A DNA stretch of 64,000 bases from Methanospirillum hungatei (GTDB lineage: Archaea; Halobacteriota; Methanomicrobia; Methanomicrobiales; Methanospirillaceae), in contig NZ_CP077107.1 of NCBI RefSeq assembly GCF_019263745.1, positions 744,001-808,000 on the forward strand, written 5' to 3'. Positions 3,212 through 52,198 of the stretch are shown one piece after another; position 1 is the first letter of the stretch, and each line of letters starts with the position of its first letter. Both the position numbers and the translations under genes were made by a program. The notes under the pieces were generated by a model, which worked only from the letters and a program-made list of their open reading frames with translations, was not told the DNA's origin and did not search any database.

Positions 3212-3841
3212 GTGGGAATTAAGGAATGGTTGGTACCACAGGACAAAGTATTTTTTGACCTTTTTGAACAACTGGCCGGTATTGTGGTGCAGGCGGCTGT
3301 CAAACTGGAACAGATTGTAACGAAAGAAAAAGATCCTGAAACAACCTATAAAGAAATTAAAGATCTGGAACATCAGGGTGATTTGATTACACATGAGATC
3401 TACGAACAGTTAAACCGGACTTTTATCACTCCACTTGATCCAATGGAGATATCCCGGCTCGCTTCAGCTCTGGATGATGTACTGGACTATATCGATGATT
3501 CTGCTGAAAAACTCCTTATCTATGGAATAAAGGATTTTGACAAAACCATGCAAAATTTTGCCCAGTTAATCCGCCTTTCTGCAGTTCAGCTGGAATGTGG
3601 TGTCAAAGGAATCAGGTCGTTTCGGAAAAACAACCCTCTTGAAAGTTGTGGCATTGAGGTTAACCGGCTTGAGAATATGGCAGATGATCTTCTTTCACAG
3701 GCGATACAGCGTCTCTTTGCCCAGGAAGACCCAATGACCACAATAAAATTAAAAGATATTTACGAGTGCCTGGAGACTGCTACTGACAAATGTGAAGATG
3801 TTGTGAACGTGTTATCAGATATCAGTATAAGGCATTCGTGA
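3212..3841 (+). CDS. DUF47 family (PhoU-like) phosphate transport accessory protein, copy 2
   Basis: A 209-residue helical protein paralogous to the one at 1321-1953: LVPQDKVFFDLF matches LPEDQFFLQVF, and ITPLDPMEISRLASALDDVLDYID matches ITPLEPDEIHRLAKALDDVIDIID (compared in short segments). The GTG at 3212 is the best start since it aligns with the paralogue. It overlaps or abuts the second PiT gene, so the pair is translationally coupled. It probably regulates or assists that permease. Confidence 0.9.
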   Translation: MGIKEWLVPQDKVFFDLFEQLAGIVVQAAVKLEQIVTKEKDPETTYKEIKDLEHQGDLITHEIYEQLNRTFITPLDPMEISRLASALDDVLDYIDDSAEKLLIYGIKDFDKTMQNFAQLIRLSAVQLECGVKGIRSFRKNNPLESCGIEVNRLENMADDLLSQAIQRLFAQEDPMTTIKLKDIYECLETATDKCEDVVNVLSDISIRHS

Positions 3842-38451: not shown

Positions 38452-38631
38452 ATCCCAAAATTAAAATTTTTAACCTCTTTTATACCCTTTTTCATCGCCT
38501 ATGTGCTGAGCGATTTATCAAATATTTACGAATGTAATGCCTGGGTACCTATCGTTTCATGTTGCCTTCTGAATGAAAACACCGACGGAAAAAATAGTAT
38601 TCCTTTATCAGTTATAAAAAGACATAAATAT

Positions 38632-39342
38632 ATGGATTCATCCTTTTCAGACATTCTTGAGAACATATTTGAAAAACAAAAAAAGGATTATCTCACCTTT
38701 ACTTCTCTTAAAAGCAGATTACCGGCGTCAATAAAATCTGTTGTTTCAATAGATGTTAAAAAGACCTCAAATAAAGATCTTGAAGAAATAATCAAACCGT
38801 ATCTCCCAGCCGGATACATTATCTATGTAAAAGGAAATACCAGATATCTCTTCAGGAAATCTCTTCAGGAAGTTATCATCTCATATTTGAAGGCAAATCC
38901 CAATCTTTCACTCAATCAGGTAAAAGCCAACCTTCCATTTAAACGTGAAGAACTGGCTGAAATAATAAACAACCTGGTTGATACTGGAAATGCAAAGACA
39001 TTCATTATAGCGAAGAAAGATGGTTTTGGTACCCGGATATCCATAATAGATAAAAATCCCGATATAAAGAAAAACGAAAATATTGCCTATACTCCGGAAG
39101 CATTCAAAGAAGGATTTAATGCTATCAACAAAGGGAAACCATATATTAAGATTTTTGAACTCCGCAGATTTCTGGCCTGGCCTTCTTCTTCATTTGATAC
39201 CTGTATGCAGGTACTATGGGATGCTGGAGTAATTGAACTACAGGCAAGCGATCCATCGCTCTTAACCGCCGATCAACAGAGAGATTCCTATAGGGATAAA
39301 TCAAACACACTTCGAATTCTTCTGTTCTGGAGGGGAGAATGA
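38632..39342 (+). CDS. Winged-helix-like protein, first gene of the Cas4-FtsK cassette
   Basis: About 236 residues, no known family. Predicted content is a series of small helical domains with strand hairpins: about 1-75 (FTSLKSRLPASI ... GYIIYVKGNTRYLF), 76-140 (LSLNQVKANLPFKREELAEII ... LVDTGNAKTFII) and 160-236 (FELRRFLAWP ... VLWDAGVIELQ), which I read as up to three winged helices. A TATA-like GTTATAAAAAG at about 38611 sits just before the ATG at 38632; the frame is open back to a GTG at 38503. Its stop overlaps the next start (ATGA at 39339). It is likely the DNA-binding or regulatory partner of the cassette. Confidence 0.7.
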   Translation: MDSSFSDILENIFEKQKKDYLTFTSLKSRLPASIKSVVSIDVKKTSNKDLEEIIKPYLPAGYIIYVKGNTRYLFRKSLQEVIISYLKANPNLSLNQVKANLPFKREELAEIINNLVDTGNAKTFIIAKKDGFGTRISIIDKNPDIKKNENIAYTPEAFKEGFNAINKGKPYIKIFELRRFLAWPSSSFDTCMQVLWDAGVIELQASDPSLLTADQQRDSYRDKSNTLRILLFWRGE

Positions 39343-41348
39343 GTTCAGGAATAGAGAGCTTACGGGAAAATAATCCATTTTATTCCAGTTCACACCCCGA
39401 TCCCTGGGTAAGACAATTTCCAAATATTACATCTATTAATGGAGAGGTTTTTTCTTCAATAGTCAGAATCATTCAAAAAAAGCAAAACCAGGCATCAAAT
39501 CCTGTCGGATTACTCATAAAAGGAGAGTCTGGATCAGGAAAAACACACATGATAGCAAGGATTCGAGAACATTGTGAAAAAACAAACTTCGAGATTAAAT
39601 TTGCTACAATTAAACCTATTATTGATTATCAGACGCCGTTACGACGTGTTTTAAAAGGGATCATAACCAATCTGGCACACCCTGTTTCAGATCAATGCAG
39701 ATATACACAAATTCATGGCATAGTCTTCTCTATAATCTGTGATTACTATGCTCATCAACCAGAAAACAAATCAATGGCGAACGATCTTGGTAGTGATGTC
39801 AATAAATTTTTTGACCATGTATACCGGAAACAGGAACATGTGGAGGCCTTATTGAAAGGTGTACAGGGGTGGACAATAAAAGAGATTCCAACAATAAATC
39901 CCCTCTTTGTCAGACTTCTCTTCTCATTTTGTAATCCGGAACTCCAACATATTGCACATATGCGACTTATCGGTGAAATAGGTGACCCGGAAGAAGCACA
40001 ACTCTTACATGTCCCTTTCCAGGAATCCTCTTCAGATCCTGCAATGGAAGAAGAAGCACGTGAATTTCTGATCTCATTAGGGCTTCTCCTTTCACGTTAT
40101 AACCAAAGCCTTATTGTCTGTTTTGATCAACTTGAAAACCTTAAAAATAAAGAACTTGTTGAGGCATTTGGCCAGATTATCTTTACAATCATCAATGATT
40201 GCCGGTCAATTATCCCGCTAACCTTTATGAGGACTTTATTCTGGGAGGAAGTCTTTTCTCCTGCTCTTGATCAGTCGATATCAGAAAGACTTGCAATGAA
40301 TCAGTGGATACTCCGGGGTTGTAATGACGATGAGGTTGAAGAGATAATAAGAACCAGAATACAGGAAATTCTTCCGGATAACTGGAGTGAACCATATTCA
40401 TGGCTTATCAAGAAAGTCAGAGAGACGATTAATAAAAATCCATCTCCACGAGAAGTTATCAGATGTGCAAATACAATTATACTACAATCCGATTCATCGT
40501 CTGTTCATATTCCCAAAGTTACACCTGAAGAAGTGATTCATGCGGCATACACAAATGAACGAGAATTAATAATATCTGATCTGGATTCATGGCCGCCAGA
40601 TTATGAAGAACTTTCTGAAGCGATAATAACTTATCTTACCTCTCGAAAATACCAGATTTCTCGGAAAAAACTCGCACGAAAATCCATTCTGACGGTATCA
40701 AAGAATAACTCCACGTGTTGCATCATAGTCAATACAAACCGAAATCATAGTGCAATTGGATCAAGTTTTGGGAAAGGAACGGAATTTTTACAGAAAAACC
40801 CAGGAGCGACATGCATATACCTGACTGATCCACGCTGTCTTATCACAAAAGAATCTTGGAACCAGGCCAACGTAAAAAAAGATAATTTCATACGTGCAGG
40901 GGGAATAATCCTCCAGCCATCAACAAGTGAAATTGCACGATTTTATGCACTATATTCAATTTCATGCAAGATATGCGAACAGGATATATTAATTGATACT
41001 GCTTCTGGAATACGACCATTAACTCAAGAAGAACTTATTGAATATCTCAAAGAACCGGCAACTTTTAAGCCATTGATTCATCGAATACCGGAAAATATCC
41101 CTGAAACAGCGAAACGAACATATTATCAGGATGATCACATTTACCAGGCATTATGTCGAATATTAACCCAGAAATCAATGCATATCATGGGGGCTGAAAC
41201 TCTGTCAGGTCAACTTACAAGCCAGGGTATCACCATGAGTCATGATGATCTGATTATCTGGTGTGGAAGACATTCTGATACGTTCCGGATAATTCAATCA
41301 CAGCAGGGATCGATGATCATTCTCCATGGAAAGGATCATGTATGCTGA
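39339..41348 (+). CDS. P-loop ATPase of the Cas4-FtsK cassette
   Basis: 669 residues. Walker A GESGSGKT (62-69), Walker B SLIVCFDQLE (about 257-266), a sensor-like FMRTLFWEE and an AAA lid (DEVEEIIRTRIQEIL ... NPSPREVIRCANTI). This resembles Orc1/Cdc6-, KAP- or BREX-type ATPases rather than a motor. The C-terminal 250 residues hold an alpha/beta region (CCIIVNTNRNHSAIG ... CIYLTDPRC) and a helical end I cannot assign. It overlaps both neighbours (4 bases upstream, 7 downstream), so the three proteins are made in fixed ratio. I see no close known family. Confidence 0.8.
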   Translation: MSSGIESLRENNPFYSSSHPDPWVRQFPNITSINGEVFSSIVRIIQKKQNQASNPVGLLIKGESGSGKTHMIARIREHCEKTNFEIKFATIKPIIDYQTPLRRVLKGIITNLAHPVSDQCRYTQIHGIVFSIICDYYAHQPENKSMANDLGSDVNKFFDHVYRKQEHVEALLKGVQGWTIKEIPTINPLFVRLLFSFCNPELQHIAHMRLIGEIGDPEEAQLLHVPFQESSSDPAMEEEAREFLISLGLLLSRYNQSLIVCFDQLENLKNKELVEAFGQIIFTIINDCRSIIPLTFMRTLFWEEVFSPALDQSISERLAMNQWILRGCNDDEVEEIIRTRIQEILPDNWSEPYSWLIKKVRETINKNPSPREVIRCANTIILQSDSSSVHIPKVTPEEVIHAAYTNERELIISDLDSWPPDYEELSEAIITYLTSRKYQISRKKLARKSILTVSKNNSTCCIIVNTNRNHSAIGSSFGKGTEFLQKNPGATCIYLTDPRCLITKESWNQANVKKDNFIRAGGIILQPSTSEIARFYALYSISCKICEQDILIDTASGIRPLTQEELIEYLKEPATFKPLIHRIPENIPETAKRTYYQDDHIYQALCRILTQKSMHIMGAETLSGQLTSQGITMSHDDLIIWCGRHSDTFRIIQSQQGSMIILHGKDHVC

Positions 41349-43303
41349 AATGTACCGTAACTGACCTTCATTTGTGCCAGCATTGTCCACGCCTGTTTGC
41401 ATATTCATGGGTAAAGAAGAAAAATGCCGCATTTATAGGACATCGGGGAACGGGTAATCTTCCCGGAACACTCTTTCATACCTTTGCCCACATGGTTTTA
41501 CAAGATATCTCATCAAAAGGAGCAGGCAGACAAGCACTTGTTCATGCACTATCCCAAAATCCACACGCAATATCCTTTCATATTCATGAAACCATTAAAG
41601 AAGAATACCTTATCCCTTTTTTAGCAGAACACGGATCTACCCTAACCATTGAAAAAATAGAAGCATTCGCGACTGCATGTGAACGCTGGATTAAATATCT
41701 TGAGGAATTTATAAATCCACACATTTCCAGTTTTCAGGATTTGGACATATTATTTGAGAGTATCTTTCACAATACTGAATACCTGATGACCTCATCATAT
41801 GTTTTTGATGATGGAGAATCAATGTCAATTTCAGGGAAACCAGACGCCCTGATTTTCGATCCCAAGACAAAAGAACCGGTTGTTCTGGAATATAAAGGCC
41901 GGAAAGAATCTGATGCCATGCAGGATTTGGCACAGACATCTCTCTATGCCTGGTTGGTACGGCAGTCAATAGGAATTATTCCACGGGTTGACATTTTGTA
42001 CCTTGAGGAGAATATGCCACTTGTCCGATATCCTCTACCAGCAATAGAGAACCTAATCGAGAATCATCCTTCTCTTTTTCAAATAGCCAGAAAAATCATG
42101 GAAGGAGAGAAGCGAATTCCAAAATGTAGTGATAATGCTCTCTGCCAGGTATGTCCATTCATACCATCATGCGACAACGATTTTGGAGAAATGATCCCGG
42201 CTGTTATTCATACGGATAAAATTGTTCCTCAAGAAAAAGAGCATACACCACAACAGGATGCAGAAGAATTACTGAGCACCCTTACTGAAAAGCTGAACCT
42301 TCTTTCCATCCCAGTCATCCCTTCGGGATATACAATCGGGCCACGATTTATCAGATTGAAAATAATTCCGGATATCAGAAAGAAGGTAACTTTTGCAAAA
42401 ATCGTAAATCGAACGGTGGATATTCAATTGGGATTATCACTCTCAATTCCTCCTTTGATTCAGGCACAGGGTGGGTATATCAGTTGTGATGTTCAACGCA
42501 ACGACTGGGAATCTTTTGATGTCAGCTCTCTTGTACAGGATGGAGGAATTCAAACCAAACACACATGTCCATATCCATTAGGAAGGAGAATTGATGGATC
42601 GGTTTTCGTAGGTGATCTGGCAGATCCGAATATGACAAGTTGTCTTATTGGGGGAACTTCCGGATCTGGAAAAAGTGAACTCATTCGCTCCATGGTTGTA
42701 GGTATTGCTTTACATAACCGGCAAACTATGCTCTCGTTTACTTTGATTGATCCAAAACGAGTTACATTTACAGATTTTTTTTCATTCCCTTATCTTTCAC
42801 AACCGGTCATTATGGATCCAAATACAGCAATGAATATTCTGAATGCCTGTGTTCATGAGATGGAAGAACGGTATAAAGTTCTTGAAAAGTCAGGCTATTC
42901 AAATATATCAGAATATAATGGCAAGGAAAATATCCAGATGGTCAGACGGATTATTGTTATTGATGAATATGCTGACCTTATCATGAACAAGGCTACAAAG
43001 GAAGCTCTTGAGAACGCAATTCAAAAGATCGGCCAAAAAGGAAGAGCAGCCGGATTTCATCTTATCCTTGCTACTCAAAGGCCAGATGCAAAGATTGTAA
43101 CAGGTGTTATCAAGGCAAACCTGCAACTGAAGATTGCTTTAAAAGTGACATCATCCACAAATTCCCGTATTATTCTTGATGAAACAGGAGCAGAATGTCT
43201 TGCCGGATATGGAGATATGCTGATAGGAGGAAGTGTACCTATACAGCGACTGCAATCTTCAAAAGTCTCTGAACGGGATTTAAAAGCATTATATGGTAAC
43301 TAG
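41342..43303 (+). CDS. Cas4-like Fe-S nuclease fused to an FtsK-type DNA translocase
   Basis: 653 residues in two parts. Residues 1-285 look like a Cas4/RecB nuclease: H46/H50 in LFHTFAH, D168 in GKPDALIF, E183-x-K185 in VLEYKGRK, Q198-x3-Y202, and Fe-S cysteines C12/C15 plus C268-x2-C271-x5-C277. Residues 325-653 follow FtsK: a GPRFIRLKIIP and FAKIVNRTVDIQLGLS alpha-like segment, Walker A GGTSGSGKSE (437-446), Walker B IIVIDEYADL (537-546), GFHLILATQRPD and SRIILDETGAECLAGYGDML. The gamma DNA-reading domain is missing. It should pump and cut DNA. The fusion is unusual, and the cassette ends here. Confidence 0.85.
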   Translation: MLKCTVTDLHLCQHCPRLFAYSWVKKKNAAFIGHRGTGNLPGTLFHTFAHMVLQDISSKGAGRQALVHALSQNPHAISFHIHETIKEEYLIPFLAEHGSTLTIEKIEAFATACERWIKYLEEFINPHISSFQDLDILFESIFHNTEYLMTSSYVFDDGESMSISGKPDALIFDPKTKEPVVLEYKGRKESDAMQDLAQTSLYAWLVRQSIGIIPRVDILYLEENMPLVRYPLPAIENLIENHPSLFQIARKIMEGEKRIPKCSDNALCQVCPFIPSCDNDFGEMIPAVIHTDKIVPQEKEHTPQQDAEELLSTLTEKLNLLSIPVIPSGYTIGPRFIRLKIIPDIRKKVTFAKIVNRTVDIQLGLSLSIPPLIQAQGGYISCDVQRNDWESFDVSSLVQDGGIQTKHTCPYPLGRRIDGSVFVGDLADPNMTSCLIGGTSGSGKSELIRSMVVGIALHNRQTMLSFTLIDPKRVTFTDFFSFPYLSQPVIMDPNTAMNILNACVHEMEERYKVLEKSGYSNISEYNGKENIQMVRRIIVIDEYADLIMNKATKEALENAIQKIGQKGRAAGFHLILATQRPDAKIVTGVIKANLQLKIALKVTSSTNSRIILDETGAECLAGYGDMLIGGSVPIQRLQSSKVSERDLKALYGN

Positions 43304-51230: not shown

Positions 51231-51286
51231 CATGACAAATTATTTCGAATTACTTATTGTTCTTCGACACCAATATCACCAAAGAA

Positions 51287-52198
51287 ATGGCAATCCCGGA
51301 TTATCAGACAGTTATGCTTCCCGTCCTACTTGCGGTAAAAGATGGAAAAGAACACCCAGTCCAAGAGATTTATCGCAACATATCTTTATCTTTCAATCTT
51401 TCTGCCGATGAACTGAACCAAAAACTCCCAAGTGGAGTACAGTCAACCTTTGATAACCGGGTCGGTTGTGCGAAAACATACCTCAAAAAAGCAGGCTTAG
51501 TTACCACTCCTTCACGAGGGAAGGTAAAAATCACCGAACGAGGATTAGTAGTACTCAGTCAAAATCCAAAACGTATCGATCAAAATTTTCTCAAACTATT
51601 TCCAGAATTTCTTGATTTTAAAGACTTTCGAACTAACAACCAAACACCACTTATTGAAAAATCAGATACTCCTGAGAGCACTCTGACTCCGCAGGAAATT
51701 CTGGAGAATAGTTATCAGGATGTTCGTAATAAACTTGCACATGAACTATTATCACAGGTTATGAGTAGTTCACCGGAATTTTTTGAGCGATTGGTCGTAG
51801 ATCTTCTGGTTGCCATGGGATATGGAGGATCACGGAGCGAAGCTGGGGAGAGGGTTGGAAAGACAGGTGATGATGGAATTGATGGTATTATAAAAGAAGA
51901 CAAACTGGGACTTGATACCGTATGTATTCAAGCCAAGAGATGGCAGAATACTGTAGGTAGACCGGAGATACAGGCGTTTGTTGGCAGTCTTGCAGGTAAC
52001 CGAGCCCGAAAAGGAGTTTTTATTACTACATCCCGTTTCTCAAGGGAAGCTCGGGAATATGTCCAGCGAATTGAACAGAAAGTCGTGTTGATTGATGGGG
52101 AAACATTAGCTGAGCTTATGATAGATCATAATGTTGGAGTTTCAGAGGAGTCTCGATATATAGTGAAAAAGATTGATATGGATTATTTTGAGGAGTGA
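51287..52198 (+). CDS. mrr: Mrr-type restriction endonuclease
   Basis: 303 residues. The N-terminal winged-helix (Mrr_N) domain spans about 1-95 (MAIPDYQTVMLPVL ... GLVTTPSRGKVKITERG). The C-terminal Mrr_cat PD-(D/E)XK domain shows FFERLVVDLLVAMGYGG, catalytic Asp in TGDDGIDGII and Q-x-K in CIQAKRW, then GVFITTSRFSREA. Mrr enzymes cut foreign or methylated DNA. I prefer the ATG at 51287, the usual family start, over 51257. The IS110 element sits directly upstream, so expression may have changed. Confidence 0.92.
   Translation: MAIPDYQTVMLPVLLAVKDGKEHPVQEIYRNISLSFNLSADELNQKLPSGVQSTFDNRVGCAKTYLKKAGLVTTPSRGKVKITERGLVVLSQNPKRIDQNFLKLFPEFLDFKDFRTNNQTPLIEKSDTPESTLTPQEILENSYQDVRNKLAHELLSQVMSSSPEFFERLVVDLLVAMGYGGSRSEAGERVGKTGDDGIDGIIKEDKLGLDTVCIQAKRWQNTVGRPEIQAFVGSLAGNRARKGVFITTSRFSREAREYVQRIEQKVVLIDGETLAELMIDHNVGVSEESRYIVKKIDMDYFEE

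Follow-up and report, generated by a model that had tools for sequence, protein, structure and literature searches.

Gene organization of the locus

The DNA analyzed here, a window of 64,000 nucleotides, belongs to the methane-producing archaeon Methanospirillum hungatei, whose genome is assembled as a single contig of 3.39 Mb. The window carries three genes (Table 1) that overlap by 4 bases (genes 1 and 2) and by 7 bases (genes 2 and 3), and the ORF coordinates agree with the original prediction of three overlapping genes. A GTG codon at 38503 was considered as the start of gene 1 and rejected, having no support in the homologue alignment. Genes for methanogenesis marker 14 and for a thermosome subunit are also found in the window, and the neighbor of the trio is a thermosome gene. 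A PADLOC scan of ten window neighbors gave matches only to an Mrr-like enzyme and to a subtilase profile, and no cas genes were found among these ten. The Mrr-like ORF (51257-52198, plus strand), located 8 kb downstream of the trio, resembles type IV methyl-directed restriction enzymes (PADLOC mREase_IV, E = 3e-92).

Table 1. Genes of the trio in the window and domains predicted in their products.
Feature	Position	Strand	Assignment	Basis
Gene 1	38632-39342	+	236 aa, predicted winged-helix-type DNA-binding protein	ORF starting with ATG
Gene 2	39339-41348	+	669 aa, Orc/Cdc6-like AAA+ ATPase	
Gene 3	41342-43303	+	653 aa, predicted Cas4/RecB-type Fe-S nuclease and FtsK alpha-beta motor	
Gene 2, AAA+ core	about residues 30-390		predicted AAA+ core	AF2 model
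Gene 2, insert	about residues 422-546		putative REase-like insert without ExK motif	AF2 model
Gene 2, C-terminus	about residues 598-662		predicted winged helix	AF2 model
Gene 3, nuclease	residues 1-281		predicted nuclease	Pfam, PADLOC Cas4 profile, AF2 model, invariant catalytic and Cys residues
Gene 3, motor	about residues 303-653		predicted FtsK alpha-beta motor	Pfam, AF2 model, Foldseek/VIA-align to FtsK 2iut/6t8o

Gene 3 joins a predicted Cas4-like nuclease to an FtsK motor

Profile searches found PF12705 PDDEXK_1 (residues 5-278, E = 7e-11) followed by PF01580 FtsK_SpoIIIE (residues 406-581, E = 3e-35) in the same chain, bearing out the fusion that had been proposed from sequence motifs. 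PADLOC Cas4 profiles matched gene 3 with E-values down to 3e-10. The residues named in the original prediction are at the expected places, namely C15, H46, D168, E183-x-K185, Q198-x3-Y202 and C268-x2-C271-x5-C277, and they are essentially invariant: C15, H46, D168, K185, Q198 and Y202 are present in 52 of 52 homologues, position 183 is E in 51 and D in one of them, and the three C-terminal cysteines occur in all 50 homologues having that position. Judged from these invariant catalytic residues, gene 3 is predicted to encode an active nuclease of the REase fold that is Cas4-like. The Walker A and B motifs of the FtsK domain are intact in the homologues as well. The E-values together with the conservation in three phyla exclude a chance similarity.

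In the AF2 model of gene 3 (mean pLDDT 85), residues 300-653 align to the alpha-beta motor of P. aeruginosa FtsK (2iut) over 346 residues at 2.2 Å (VIA-align, Z 40.9). Since the chain ends where this alignment ends, the protein has no gamma domain, in line with the motor architecture that had been proposed. It thereby differs from the cellular FtsK/SpoIIIE proteins with their membrane N-terminus and gamma domain, as its N-terminus is the nuclease and the chain stops after the beta domain. Nevertheless, Foldseek and VIA-align assign the motor to the cellular FtsK type, and the FtsK-like coupling protein TcpA is a structural relative; Foldseek additionally matched the Fe-S nuclease Dna2. The Pfam score for the FtsK alpha domain exceeds the cut-off in two homologues (L081 and L099), whereas the window protein scores 17.7 against a cut-off of 22.9, although it is structurally aligned from residue 300 onward. 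A dN/dS value of 0.11 for the FtsK part in one pair of genomes (G002 and G005) suggests that this part is under purifying selection. Values of 0.13-0.33 were obtained for other close pairs, which are of low divergence, and synonymous sites are at or near saturation in the pairs between the window and G011.

The ATPase and the putative DNA-binding protein

Gene 2 matched Pfam KAP_NTPase with E = 1.2e-7 and 31.7 bits (cut-off 20). Its AF2 model (mean pLDDT 84) gave Cdc6/Orc proteins as best Foldseek matches (E = 2e-5), and VIA-align returned Z scores of 13-15 to Orc/Cdc6 and TnsC (1fnn: Z 14.3, 244 residues, 4.1 Å). The fold of the model is that of Orc/Cdc6, although Pfam scores the protein as a KAP NTPase, a family characterized by membrane helices within the P-loop domain, and both results uphold the Orc/KAP-like P-loop ATPase of the original prediction. 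Ahead of the C-terminal winged helix the model contains an insert without any Pfam match, in which the strand order of residues 422-525 is alpha-beta-beta-beta-alpha-beta, as in the restriction-endonuclease fold. Judged by this topology alone, the insert may be REase-like, which agrees with the 'iREase' of a published class as far as its main text describes it (PMC10853773).

No Pfam or NCBIfam family matched gene 1. Its N-terminal part is fast-evolving and its C-terminal module is conserved (...ELRRFLxW...ELQASDPSLLT...). A protein of the winged-helix type is suggested by its sequence pattern and by comparison with the published class, and on this footing we retain the earlier assignment of a winged-helix gene beside the ATPase. 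In a comparison with solved structures only calmodulin was retrieved (E 0.002-0.03), which we judged to be a chance match. Two small isolated ORFs in the genome G020 (L062, 8592-8837; L063, about 3218-3433) show similarity to gene 1 in its C-terminal module alone and are possibly remnants of other copies.

Distribution, gene order and fusions

Relatives of the ATPase were sought by a contig scan and by six-frame searches, with Cyanobacteriia and Synergistota among the matches listed. Strong matches (E<=1e-84) were obtained in 65 of 390 Cyanobacteriia genomes, and 54 of 188 Synergistota genomes had a match at E<=1e-20, with a clustered occurrence. In the ATPase tree the Synergistota sequences form one group, and the archaeal sequences are closer to them than to those of Cyanobacteria. 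Seven of the 12 Methanospirillum genomes contain gene 3, which is absent from three 99%-complete genomes of the genus; a further 295 genomes of the host phylum yielded matches in G000 and G020 only. No relatives of the ATPase were found in phage records or in IMG/VR. Copies of the trio are mostly single and chromosomal, and a plasmid search located one in Pseudanabaena sp. PCC 7367, where the conjugative plasmid pPSE7367.01 carries it next to SWIM and SNF2-type genes.

Gene order was examined around 62 ATPase genes of Methanomicrobia, Synergistota and Cyanobacteria, the loci being picked via the ATPase and not via its neighbors. A member of the gene-1 family lies directly upstream in 55 of the 62 cases and a nuclease-bearing ORF directly downstream in 48. 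The downstream ORFs encode the nuclease alone (22, some at contig ends), exonuclease-nuclease-FtsK (17), nuclease-FtsK (8) or a truncated exonuclease-nuclease (1). In Cyanobacteria, an extra N-terminal 3'-5' exonuclease (DNA_pol_A_exo1, E = 3e-27) gives rise to the triple fusion, and its DEDDy motifs are invariant in 19 sequences. One Synergistota genome (L100) encodes the ATPase and the FtsK motor in a single chain that lacks the nuclease, which argues that these two act together, and in another locus (L013) the gene-1 module is fused to an ATPase. The trio is a real, intact and conserved unit, and this conservation and the fusions speak for the DNA translocating and cutting machine that had been suggested.

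Some loci depart from this arrangement. In G010 the ATPase is broken and an ORF is situated between its pieces and gene 3. Outside the genus, G012 encodes the nuclease as a separate gene of 292 aa beside two ATPases, one of which carries the gene-1 module at its C-terminus. In one Synergistaceae genome a 525-aa ORF without Pfam match (L069, 12209-13786) separates the ATPase from the nuclease-FtsK gene.

Genomic neighborhoods

The flanks of the trio vary within Methanospirillum: the window has the thermosome gene there, G002 and G008 have SNF2 and SWIM genes, and G011 has other genes. An attempt to define the empty site failed, as there were no shared flanks; genomes of the genus without the trio keep the thermosome orthologue with other neighbors. 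Among the clustered flanking genes of the surveyed loci no recurrent defence family was detected, the exception being SNF2 and SWIM genes in Methanospirillum and on one cyanobacterial plasmid. The expectation of a conserved trio near defence genes was therefore borne out for the gene order (55/62 and 48/62) but not for the flanks. The pair of an SNF2-type helicase and a SWIM protein adjoins the trio in two Methanospirillum genomes (L012, 2754-6301; L016, 3643-7667) and on the Pseudanabaena plasmid (L065, 6815-10952), and it is not found beside the trio in the window.

In most sampled Synergistaceae loci the trio occupies a constant cell-wall and pilus locus; in 13-17 loci its neighbors are mraW, ftsL, ftsI, YceG, FtsK and pilin/PilM-like genes. 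The nuclease gene of this clade is not fused to FtsK, and an ordinary FtsK gene is located a few kb downstream. Prepilin-like and PilM-like genes follow the nuclease gene, sometimes with a 4-base overlap. In three loci the Cas4-like nuclease ORF continues into a prepilin-like segment (L085, 10016-11962; L071, 11997-13394; L073, 7758-9194), where relatives have two adjacent ORFs. No pilus genes were seen beside the trio in the examined archaea or cyanobacteria.

A ParA-like gene is present near the trio in 11 cyanobacterial loci. In two loci a ParA-type ATPase near the trio carries an N-terminal HSDR_N-like nuclease domain (L079, 14943-17265, minus strand; a similar pair in L080, 9100-11442), and in L079 the gene adjoining it matches ParB_N weakly. 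Integrase, relaxase and replication genes did not accompany the trio in the surveyed loci.

Relation to described systems

The architecture of the trio corresponds to that of the Orc/CDC6-coupled HerA/FtsK capture systems, a class predicted computationally by Rakesh, Aravind and Krishnan (NAR 2024, section 22), who argued for an anti-invader role from associations (PMC10853773). According to the main text, these systems combine a wHTH gene and an active REase with an Orc/CDC6 ATPase, into which an inactive REase is inserted, and with an FtsK that has or lacks the alpha domain; in some a 3'-5' exonuclease is fused as well. The proposed mechanism is localization to invading DNA followed by pumping and cutting. 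The trio shares with this description the Orc/Cdc6 ATPase with an insert before the C-terminal winged helix, the nuclease, FtsK with the alpha domain, the predicted wHTH protein and the optional FtsK-fused 3'-5' exonuclease, and because of this match it very probably belongs to the class. The nuclease differs, being Cas4-like here, whereas the two REase families given in the main text include one of the AbiJ type, and neither Cas4, RecB or an Fe-S nuclease nor cyanobacteria, Synergistota or Methanospirillum are mentioned there. What is new relative to that main text is that the nuclease is Cas4-like, that methanogens carry the trio and that the ATPase can be fused to FtsK, together with a caution about the defence role. 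In the literature searched, no experimental test of the class was found. That the original prediction could not match the trio to a named defence system was fair insofar as it is not a PADLOC system, but its architecture had already been described in 2024.

PADLOC itself gave matches to shared domains only (SspH, mad8, Cas4 and HerA for gene 3, weak ATPase matches for gene 2), and the named defence systems were rejected as an identity. DndFGH and SspFGH resemble the trio in combining an ATPase, a wHTH protein and a nuclease-FtsK/HerA protein, and the FtsK domain of gene 3 matches SspH profiles (2e-54) and DndH-C (Z 20.5). However, gene 3 has 653 aa compared to about 1700, the nuclease is from another family, and none of the trio proteins matched the NCBIfam models DptF, DptG or DptH at E<=1. 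In HerA-NurA, HerA-DUF4297 and HerA-Sir2, too, an effector or nuclease is paired with a translocase of the HerA/FtsK class that forms hexamers. The trio differs in its motor, which is of the FtsK type (Z about 40 versus 16-20 for HerA) and has an alpha domain, and in its Cas4-like nuclease, which is fused. Gene 3 shares H, D, ExK, QxxxY and four cysteines with the Cas4/AddB/Dna2 Fe-S nucleases. A classification as a CRISPR Cas4 equivalog was rejected in view of the FtsK fusion, a TIGR00372 score of 35.8 bits (cut-off 65) and the ten neighbors free of cas genes. BREX, through BrxC, and the BREX-related capture systems, in which the theme recurs (NAR 2026, PMC12839542), also contain an Orc/Cdc6-like ATPase with wHTH domains, and HerA/FtsK is recruited in the related capture system. 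In contrast to BREX, the trio is devoid of PglZ and methyltransferase, and the similarity of gene 2 to BrxC_BrxD is weak (E = 0.08).

Proposed function

Sequences and models show the domain composition, preserved active sites, conservation of the trio, and fusions of FtsK with the ATPase and with the nuclease. We infer that the proteins form a complex in which gene 1 and the winged helix and AAA+ ring of gene 2 would recognize certain double-stranded DNA, probably that of invaders, and load onto it. Assembled into a hexamer of the FtsK type, gene 3 would pump this DNA past the Cas4/RecB-type Fe-S nuclease at its own N-terminus, to be degraded there; in cyanobacteria the 3'-5' exonuclease on the same chain may help in the degradation. 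As a motor without gamma domain lacks the sequence reader of FtsK itself, direction and target choice would be set by genes 1 and 2. The purpose would be anti-plasmid or anti-phage.

Anti-invader defence by this capture mechanism is the most likely role of the trio, with a probability of roughly 60%, and it is best supported because of the patchy occurrence, the differing loci, the plasmid carriage and the published associations. Speaking against it are flanks in which no defence genes recurred among the loci surveyed, the fixed Synergistaceae locus, the ParA-like gene near 11 cyanobacterial loci and the lack of an ATPase match in phage records and IMG/VR. The constant locus and clustered presence make the Synergistaceae pattern look more resident than that of a typical defence system, and this fixed locus is a genuine alternative to be weighed against defence. 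That the trio is primarily a resident nuclease machine, loaded by the Orc-like ATPase, driven by FtsK and working on own or incoming DNA (for segregation, uptake or the processing of ends), kept at one locus in Synergistaceae and sporadic in cyanobacteria and methanogens, is unlikely but to be taken seriously. If own DNA were the substrate, the Orc-like ATPase would load the FtsK-Cas4-type nuclease for chromosome or plasmid segregation or for dimer or end processing. The place beside mraW, ftsL, ftsI and pilin, PilM, YceG and FtsK genes, the clustered presence in Synergistota, the ParA-like neighbors and the cellular type of the motor are consistent with such a role, which nonetheless appears rather doubtful given the patchiness in Cyanobacteria and Methanospirillum, the differing archaeal loci and the plasmid-borne Pseudanabaena copy. 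Moreover, at least 14 Synergistota genomes with the trio also encode an AddA-like protein, as do genomes without the trio; because of this co-occurrence the trio is not a simple AddAB replacement.

The prepilin-like and PilM-like genes that follow the Synergistaceae nuclease gene, sometimes overlapping it or continuing its ORF, would fit a nuclease and pump that work alongside components of type IV pili and process DNA entering by natural transformation or conjugation. We regard this as improbable, as the archaeal and cyanobacterial copies have no such neighbors and the pilus and wall genes may be a native cluster of the Synergistaceae lineage. Least probable is a selfish or mobile-element gene set for replication, partition or transfer instead of a host system. 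The copy on a conjugative plasmid and the structural relationship to TcpA point in that direction; the mostly single chromosomal copies, the lack of integrase, relaxase and replication genes with the trio and the failure to match the ATPase in phage records or viral contigs disfavor it. If the capture reading is true, the trio combines a double-stranded DNA pump and an Fe-S nuclease in one compact chain with an Orc/Cdc6-like loader, and would be a small model for the choice and destruction of DNA. Since the cyanobacterial members include cultured species, the question of defence is directly testable.

Further relatives of the ATPase

Cyanobacteria also contain a second, more distant family resembling gene 1 and the ATPase, with ORFs of about 600-850 aa (second matches in G237-G244; many genomes at E 1e-20 to 1e-50). 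On two cyanobacterial plasmids a related ATPase is part of a protein annotated as exonuclease (L066, 14551-16953, with a DEDDh match; L067, 14551-16950). In L066 this gene is preceded by helicase and phospholipase D genes that are DISARM-like by annotation.
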